DNA from: Lepraria neglecta
Lineage: Eukaryota; Ascomycota; Lecanoromycetes; Lecanorales; Stereocaulaceae
Reading direction: 5' to 3'
Assembly: GCA_033220425.1 (NCBI GenBank)
Contig: CM065648.1
Span: 868,001-932,000 of the forward strand
Length of the DNA stretch: 64,000 bases
Below the pieces are notes generated by a model. That model worked only from the letters and a program-made list of their open reading frames with translations. It was not told the DNA's origin and made no database searches. Below are positions 36,497 to 38,253 of the stretch, piece after piece (position 1 is the first letter of the stretch; every line of letters starts with the position of its first letter). A program made the position numbers and the translations under genes.

Positions 36497-38253
36497 ATGG
36501 ATCCCCTCAGCATTGCAGCCTCCATCACTGCAATTCTCACCGCAGCTGTACAAGTTTCCAGCCTTTTCACGCAGATTCGTAATGCGCCAGCATCTGTGGC
36601 TGCCATTTTGACGGAGATTGAGCATATCAAAATAGTTTTTCATGCGCTGCAAAGGTTTGTTGATCATGCGAGGACAGTGACCCGTCACCGTGCAGCCTTG
36701 GTCCAAATCGAAGATGTTACCATGATACTCACTCAAACCGTTCTTGTGTTCTCCGAGCTTCAAACATTAATTGCACCTTTGTCGGCCAATAGTCAGCGTT
36801 CTAGTATAAGACGGCGGTTCGATTGGTCACGTCAGGAGCCTGGGGTCATTCGTCTCGTAGATCAATTACAAAGACACAAGACCTCATTGTCTCTTCTCCT
36901 TCAAGTTATTCAATGGTAGGCCCAACTAGGGGCGGAGACAAACCCGTACAATTAAAGCTGACCGCAGTCCGCTAGCAATTCCGACCTACAAGCACGAGAA
37001 ACTGCAGACGCTTTACAACAACATATTAAGAATGAGATAGAGGCGGATGCTGACCTAGTGACAAGACTTGAGAGAATTCAGTTGCCATTAGATGCCATCG
37101 AGCTTGAAACCATGGATGAAACTCGCGATGAAGGGCAGGGAACGACAACCCCGGACGCCGGAAATATAACACCAGTCAGAGCTGCCACTCCTCAGCCTCA
37201 AGAAATACCGGAATTGGACGTTCCAGAAGCCGACCCTAGGATGCAGGCGACTTATGATGTCGTACTGGCAAGGACTAGAGTCTATAACCGTGTCAGAGAC
37301 CGAGATGTGGACGCTATAACCTCGGTTTCGACTACTAGATCTCGTCCCTGGTCTGTCTTATCCGGGGTTAGTATGGCAAACATCTCGATCATTGCTGTTA
37401 TTAGTCTGCCCCTACACGAGCCAGAAATGAGGAGATTCAGGCAGCTTATGTCGCCAATCAACCACGTTGGACTTGACGTGGAGTTCGACAATAGATCGGA
37501 CGACGACTTCGCCGAGTCGAATGGTCTTAGTCCGAGCTACCTCTTACCTCGATCTACGCGTGAGTTTCCACGTGAGTATCCGCATCTGACGGAAGATTTT
37601 TTGCGCTACTATGGGCTATTTTGGAACAGTAGTGGCACGCCAACTGCTCATTCGTTGAGGAGGATCAACAAAGAATTGAATCGGATGGCTCATGATCCGC
37701 CATCGATGTGTAACGCACAGCCGATAGGCGACGACTTGGTGTGTCTGTTCGCGCAAGTGCCTTGTGTCTTCAAGCTGACAAATATAAGTATAACTGGCAA
37801 GCAACGATGATAGGACCTGTAAGTCGGGTTGATCGGCGTCTACTGCTTTGCTAACTGTCCAAACAGGGCGACTCATCATATTCAGGCGGTGTCTTCTTTC
37901 TGGCGGTTCGATTGCCTGGGGACTACCCTTTTCGTCCTCCGCGAGTCACTTTCACAACCAGAATCTACCATCCGAACATAAATGCCAATGGGCAAATTTC
38001 GTTGGACATACTGGGAGCTCAATGGTGGCCGGGTTTTACCATCGAGAAAGGTAATAGTCTATACAGCATGCTACACCTATTTTGGCAAGGTCTGACCTTT
38101 TTGTTCCTCTCAGTTCTACTATCGATCGTATCTTTTCTTGATGACCCGAACGTAGATGAGCCGCTGGTTCCCGAGATTGCATATATCTACAAGACTGACA
38201 GGGGTCGTTATAATGCGACAGCCAGACGTTGGACGAGGAGTTATGCTATTTGA
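36497..38253 (+). CDS. STAND/NLR-type N-terminal domain fused to an E2 (UBC) domain lacking the catalytic Cys
   Basis: Five predicted exons (36497-36915, 36976-37738, 37789-37818, 37867-38050, 38114-38253) give an unbroken 511-residue protein. Residues 1-140 start [19 protein letters not shown] and have the helical pattern of the N-terminal domains of fungal STAND/NLR proteins. A linker follows, with [19 protein letters not shown], which I also associate with that protein class. From about residue 366 a full UBC fold begins: [57 protein letters not shown], and [19 protein letters not shown]. It tracks the UBE2D family closely and keeps the HPN motif, but the active-site position reads QISLDIL instead of ICLDIL, so the acceptor Cys is Ser. 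Exon 3 is a 30-base micro-exon inside the UBC domain. There is no NACHT or NB-ARC domain. The function is unknown; a ubiquitin-sensing or decoy role is inference. Confidence 0.82.

Follow-up and report, generated by a model that had tools for sequence, protein, structure and literature searches.

The gene located at positions 36,497 to 38,253 of the window (the whole 64,000-nucleotide stretch of Lepraria neglecta DNA analysed here) encodes a protein that joins a HeLo-like N-terminal domain to an E2 ubiquitin-conjugating domain lacking its catalytic cysteine, and it belongs to a small family of loci in which the same front end precedes different modules. The sequence supports this anatomy, i.e. 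the gene model, the domains, the parentage of the E2 part, the changes of catalytic residues and the existence of a family in the genome. In this protein a pseudoenzyme may act as bait and gate the HeLo-like domain, following the logic of MLKL or of integrated decoys but without an NLR, a reading to which we give a probability of about 45%.

The gene is intact over its five exons, as originally predicted: the frame of 511 amino acids is open and all introns are GT..AG (Table 1). Exon 2 (763 nt) is one open stretch that contains the last part of the N-domain, the whole central block and the first E2 residues, which argues against two separate genes, and the very short exon 3 is supported by homology, as the gene UBC4 of the same genome has an exon of 30 nt at the same codons (31–40). 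As the structure was read from the genome sequence rather than from transcripts, the gene model might be an artefact that merges a HeLo-like gene with an E2 pseudogene next to it. This is hardly credible and was rejected, since the junction lies within exon 2, whose single open stretch spans both parts, and the same front end precedes other modules at other loci.

Table 1. Features of the gene in the window (window positions) and related loci elsewhere in the genome (locus positions).
Feature	Position	Strand	Remark
Exon 1	36497..36915	+	N-terminal helical domain (PF17111, PigL_N / HeLo-like), first helix hydrophobic
Intron 1	36916..36975	+	
Exon 2	36976..37738	+	Last part of N-domain, then linker and central block, first part of E2 domain
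Central block, MQATYDVV...RQL	37241..37447	+	Aligned with its counterparts at six paralogous loci
Start of Ubc4/5-type E2 domain	37652..37738	+	Residue 366 onward
Intron 2	37739..37788	+	Position and phase as in UBC4
Exon 3	37789..37818	+	30 nt; counterpart exon of 30 nt at the same position in UBC4
Intron 3	37819..37866	+	Position and phase as in UBC4
Exon 4	37867..38050	+	184 nt, E2 core; UBC4 exon likewise 184 nt
HPN motif of E2	37969..37977	+	
TCG (Ser) at catalytic Cys85 position	37999..38001	+	
Changed RING-contact loop WPGFT	38026..38040	+	SPALT in UBC4
Intron 4	38051..38113	+	Position and phase as in UBC4
Exon 5	38114..38253	+	C-terminal part of E2 and stop
Window gene	36497..38253	+	E2 as module after central block
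Paralogous locus	C3:323.9k		RhoGAP (PF00620, 1.3e-21)
Paralogous locus	C2:2609k		LIM (PF00412, 4.4e-9)
Paralogous locus	C5:2712k		G-alpha (PF00503)
Paralogous locus	C7:3927k		G-alpha (PF00503)
Paralogous locus	C4:4092k		G-alpha pieces; one piece 21.3 bits, below cut-off; one genome match 59 bits, above
Paralogous locus	C4:1538k		Module of no known family
Eighth locus	C6:4443-4446k		Divergent N-domain below PF17111 cut-off (17.2 bits), whole-length degenerate G-alpha (PF00503, 1.5e-42)

The N-terminus had been likened to the signalling domains found at the start of fungal STAND/NLR proteins, and the profile search bears this out. In a Pfam scan of the whole protein, PF17111 (PigL_N, earlier Helo_like_N) matches residues 1–190 with 38.6 bits (cut-off 27.2, E 1e-9), and residues 1–139 alone still reach 29.6 bits against the same cut-off. 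This domain, under the name Helo_like_N, is listed among the effector domains of fungal NLRs in the available part of PMC9815663. The same genome holds at least one locus (L053) where a PF17111 domain precedes a NACHT module, confirmed by PF24883 and PF05729. It was also correctly noticed that neither NACHT nor NB-ARC follows the N-domain: none is found among the Pfam matches of the 511-residue protein, where the scan up to E = 1 adds to PF17111 and PF00179 only a sub-threshold PriC. No repeat family of the C-terminal superstructure type was matched in that scan either, the C-terminus being the E2.

A single-sequence model of residues 1–139, at low confidence (pLDDT 64.6), consists of four long helices, with a short helix inserted before the fourth. 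Fold searches with this model gave generic matches (designed bundles, vinculin, FAT and similar), and HET-S and MLKL are absent from the best 50 matches of either search, an absence that excludes nothing; given the generic matches and the pLDDT, the model neither supports nor excludes a HeLo fold. The first helix of the protein is hydrophobic, the best 19-mer having a mean hydropathy of 1.79 and lying inside the predicted first helix. In the seven N-domains of the family and the C6 locus, the best 19-mers of the N-terminal helix have Kyte-Doolittle means of 1.41–2.02, the comparison covering these eight N-domains alone. According to the accessible parts of PMC9815663 and PMC12881547, HeLo-like domains are related to the four-helix bundle of MLKL and their first helix targets membranes.

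The C-terminal part of about 146 residues is a complete UBE2D-like domain with its HPN motif, in agreement with the original prediction: PF00179 matches residues 369–505 with 145.8 bits (E 8.1e-43) over positions 1–139 of the 140 of the profile, and the best PDB matches are UBE2D2 and UBE2D3. The two sequence changes that had been pointed out are both real. The codon at the Cys85 position specifies serine, and two of the PDB entries aligned with the E2 part also read ISLDIL at the active site, being Cys-to-Ser versions. The loop that contacts RING ligases is altered by S94W, A96G and L97F relative to UBC4. Further changes relative to this gene include S22N, R90G, D91A and D117E; F62, N77 and P95 are kept. 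We take the functional roles of S22, F62, N77, the RING loop and the groove positions in E2s as established and presume that R90, D91 and D117 lie near the active-site groove. With Asn at position 22 and an altered RING loop, the ordinary contacts of an E2 may be weakened. When the active-site region is aligned with that of 11 other E2 loci from the genome, 16 columns prove to be conserved at 80% or more among these loci; the part of the fused copy used covers 15 of the columns and keeps 14, the sole loss being the catalytic cysteine. This cysteine is present in all 17 other E2 loci found by the E2 search of the genome, a count that leaves out seven further places listed in the profile search only. 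The E2 part is thus a UEV in the broad sense, i.e. an E2 fold without catalytic cysteine. Closest kinship with the Mms2/Uev1 clade is not borne out, as UBC4, with which it shares introns, is its nearest match in the genome and the closest PDB chains are UBE2D.

Judging from identity and gene structure, the E2 part arose by an old duplication of UBC4, which lies at C1:4460948-4461350 in the same genome. The two share 103 of 146 residues without any indel and have three introns at the same positions, with exon ends that coincide (codon positions 30.0, 40.0 and 101.33); a further intron of UBC4, after codon position 14.67, has no counterpart in the fused copy. Synonymous differences are saturated (pS 0.82; pN 0.22), hence no dN/dS ratio can be given, and part of the constraint on the E2 may predate the fusion. 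Retroposition of the E2 was considered as well and rejected because of the introns shared with UBC4.

When the genome was searched with the N-terminal part of the window gene, and with that of its nearest paralogue, seven loci including the window gene itself were found to share the N-domain and the central block. Neither the block nor the paralogues figured in the original prediction. When the nearest paralogue is used as query, the window gene is the weakest of the seven N-domain matches (2.7e-15) and the next locus follows at 3.5e-6. The central block is present at all seven, with a mean column identity of 57% in a seven-row alignment. Only the window gene has a complete gene model, the other six members being read as matched stretches. 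Stops occur inside the N-domain exon in two of the seven, C4:4092k and C7:3927k (two TAG; one TGA). For the last open piece of C4:1538k, neither Pfam nor the rest of the genome yielded a match. Exon 2 has no relatives in the searched prokaryote genomes and viral contigs, a result that has no bearing on fungi.

A standalone locus (L082, C2:3438700-3442300) carries a degenerate G-alpha-like gene, with no N-domain recognisable by eye. The same short peptides, GAGGRERTAMALKEMN... and RANCWWDAHTNS..., are found inside both this gene and C4:4092k (L077), and the stretches are probably one repeat inserted in both.

The enzyme-type copies are six, namely the E2, the RhoGAP, the three G-alpha of the family and the G-alpha of the C6 locus. 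Residues that we take from established knowledge to be catalytic in E2, RhoGAP and G-alpha proteins are changed in all five copies that can be read at the site; the sixth, C4:4092k, is not readable there. In the RhoGAP copy, which retains 102 of 181 residues of its parent, FRMSGS has become FTISGS. In the G-alpha of C5:2712k, the Arg of LRSRLRTTGI is replaced by Trp and DVGGQR by DCGGAR (parent chosen by eye among three; identities of 31/60, 42/85 and 47/110 in three pieces). The copy at C7:3927k, whose gene carries a stop, has DVGGLR and keeps the switch-I Arg, and that of the C6 locus has a P-loop reading GPSYAGYSK and lacks DVGGQR, a motif kept in all three ordinary G-alpha genes of the genome. 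As many sites differ from the parent (43/146 in the E2 and 79/181 in the RhoGAP), each catalytic change alone is not improbable. What stands out, as far as the sequences can be read, is the combination of retained folds with a changed catalytic residue, which recurs in all three types of enzyme.

PF17111 recurs in this genome, with at least 49 matched stretches at E <= 0.001. Several of the 27 loci whose downstream frames were read by eye look like NACHT proteins. Others place the PF17111-type N-domain before different modules. One of them (L052, C8:4263k) continues into a degenerate ubiquitin-like module (PF00240, 25.7 bits, just above its cut-off of 25.4) whose C-terminal Gly-Gly, by eye, is not at the expected place. 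Another (L063, C5:4203k) continues into a ubiquitin-like ULD_2 module (PF22893, 2.9e-12), and L055 resembles it by eye. At L058 (C5:783k), which has a stop within the N-domain stretch, the N-domain is followed by a PH module (PF15411 PH_10, 2.6e-14), presumably of Cdc24 type.

The neighbours of the gene had been described as mostly broken, which holds in part. Six of the ten other frames scanned are long and open with strong Pfam matches (phytoene synthase, amine-oxidase type, rhodopsin, RPE65 type, GH47 and F-box/WD40), two are fragments (transposase and kinase) and two matched nothing at 1e-5. Four of these frames form an apparent carotenoid/retinal cluster at 47533-63132, with an amine-oxidase-type frame (PF01593) that on reading appears to be a phytoene desaturase, a rhodopsin (PF01036), a phytoene synthase (PF00494) and an RPE65-type oxygenase (PF03055). 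The transposase fragment is a DDE_Tnp_1_7 (PF13843; 53659-54423, minus strand). The kinase fragment is a 92-residue frame with a partial protein kinase match (PF00069, E 1.1e-7; 39678-39953, minus strand), and the adjoining frame up to 40200 is kinase-like by eye. About 300 bp downstream of the stop codon of the window gene lies a tandem array (38554-38818) of about 17 copies of the 15-bp unit GGGTGTAGGCCAAAA, which also has a period of 45 bp.

From a copied host domain placed behind a front end of the cell-death type, with MLKL as the nearest arrangement, we favour a pseudoenzyme bait that controls the N-domain. The family would follow a modular plan in which a HeLo-like helical domain and a conserved central block are joined to a duplicated housekeeping signalling protein that has lost catalytic residues and kept its fold, here an E2 of UBC4/UBE2D type with Cys85 replaced by Ser. 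Relatives of the HeLo-like domain target membranes and cause cell death in fungi. The pseudo-E2 could serve as a binding bait for a partner that engages Ubc4/5, be it an E3, ubiquitin or a foreign factor attacking the ubiquitin system. Once the bait is bound or modified, the N-terminal domain would change its state and assemble at a membrane. The bait function, the gating and the output on membranes or as cell death are what we infer from the sequences. The earlier suggestion that the dead E2 is a sensor or decoy is strengthened by the existence of a family whose copied signalling domains are altered at catalytic residues; its binding of a partner and its immune role are to be read as putative. 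Stops at two of the seven loci, a module of no known family, the LIM module, which is no enzyme, and the switch-I Arg retained by the C7 G-alpha count against the bait reading.

The known systems that come closest each share part of this architecture. With the UBE2D or Ubc4-Ubc5 E2s, the protein has in common the complete domain, the HPN motif and, as regards UBC4, the identity and the three intron positions given above; it differs from them by the Ser in place of the catalytic Cys, the changed RING loop and an N-terminal part of 365 residues. With the HeLo-like/PigL_N proteins and the PF17111-NACHT NLRs, it shares an N-terminal PF17111 match above cut-off and a hydrophobic first helix, but in place of the NACHT or NB-ARC of the latter it has a C-terminal module that is a Cys-less E2. 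The likeness to MLKL is one of arrangement, i.e. a HeLo-related type of domain followed by a catalytically dead enzyme, the relation of HeLo-like domains to MLKL being that described in PMC9815663 and PMC12881547. The analysis gave no match to MLKL in sequence or fold, and MLKL has a pseudokinase whereas the family described here has an E2, a G-alpha or a RhoGAP. Integrated decoys, namely kinase modules derived from CHK2, have been proposed in NLRs of Sordariales (PMC12258605, available part), where a duplicated host housekeeping domain is likewise fused behind an immune-type front end. A duplicated host domain is indeed found in the fusion (the UBC4 duplicate with its three shared introns), but the protein has no NOD and is thus not an NLR-type receptor. 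The family also differs from these decoys by a module placed directly behind the HeLo-like domain and central block, and by several types of module in one genome. As a precedent for the targeting of such an E2, the bacterial effector OspG binds UbcH5 according to the part of PMC9950578 available, in animals and not in fungi. No description of a fusion between a HeLo-like domain and an E2 was found in the open-access literature, as judged by titles and the starts of abstracts among the matches listed.

Other explanations have to be weighed against the bait reading. The dead E2 could regulate endogenous ubiquitination, as COP10 or Morgue would, by enhancing Ubc4/5 or competing with them at E3s, the N-domain only placing it at a membrane or in a complex and no foreign factor being sensed. 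To our knowledge, neither COP10 nor Morgue has a HeLo-like domain. Both contain an E2 domain without catalytic Cys (PMC7215765, PMC3787007), and E2 variants of this kind are known regulators (PMC7215765). Morgue is moreover a fusion, of an E2 variant with an F-box, that influences cell death, although it has Gly at the site, while the window gene has Ser and a HeLo-like domain (PMC3787007). The retention of F62, P95 and HPN fits such a regulator. We nevertheless consider it unlikely, as it leaves unexplained the RhoGAP, LIM and G-alpha copies attached to the same N-domain and central block. The Ser itself suggests another role, that of a natural ubiquitin trap: Ser85 would still be charged by E1 and, the oxyester being stable, an E2-O-ubiquitin form would accumulate and either signal or sequester ubiquitin. 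According to PMC9501438, E1 can charge the C85S form of UBCH5B in vitro and the resulting oxyester is more stable, but this took 150–200 uM of E2 and 16–20 h. As R90, D91 and D117 near the groove are also changed in the fused E2, such a trap seems a long shot.

It is also conceivable that the whole family is a by-product of birth and death, in which shuffling around a repeated front end makes fusions that decay, the window copy being simply not broken yet. The stops in the N-domain exon of two of the seven loci, as well as the apparent repeat insert common to C4:4092k and the degenerate G-alpha at C2:3439k, are in keeping with it. However, the 146 E2 codons contain no indel, the frame and introns are intact, and most residues and 14 of the 15 conserved columns compared are kept in spite of saturated synonymous sites, even if part of this constraint could predate the fusion. 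We therefore hold this explanation to be quite improbable.

The favoured reading, that of a HeLo-like domain gated by a pseudo-E2 bait, extends to the family as a whole in a bolder form, which is rather doubtful. Filamentous fungi would hold a modular, MLKL-like and NLR-free family made of a HeLo-like front end, a central block and interchangeable pseudoenzyme baits (the Ubc4 E2, G-alpha, RhoGAP and LIM and, in looser relatives, ubiquitin and the Cdc24-type PH). Each bait would guard one cellular pathway and, when bound or modified, set off damage to membranes or the death of the cell. As the UBC4 parent is present in the same genome, the E2 case is directly testable in vitro. If this reading is true, fungi attach catalytically inactive copies of their signalling enzymes, as baits, directly to a domain of the cell-death type without an NLR, and the choice of modules copied would indicate which fungal pathways are attacked by rivals or bacteria. 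It would also provide, beside MLKL, a second setting in which a pseudoenzyme controls a four-helix bundle.
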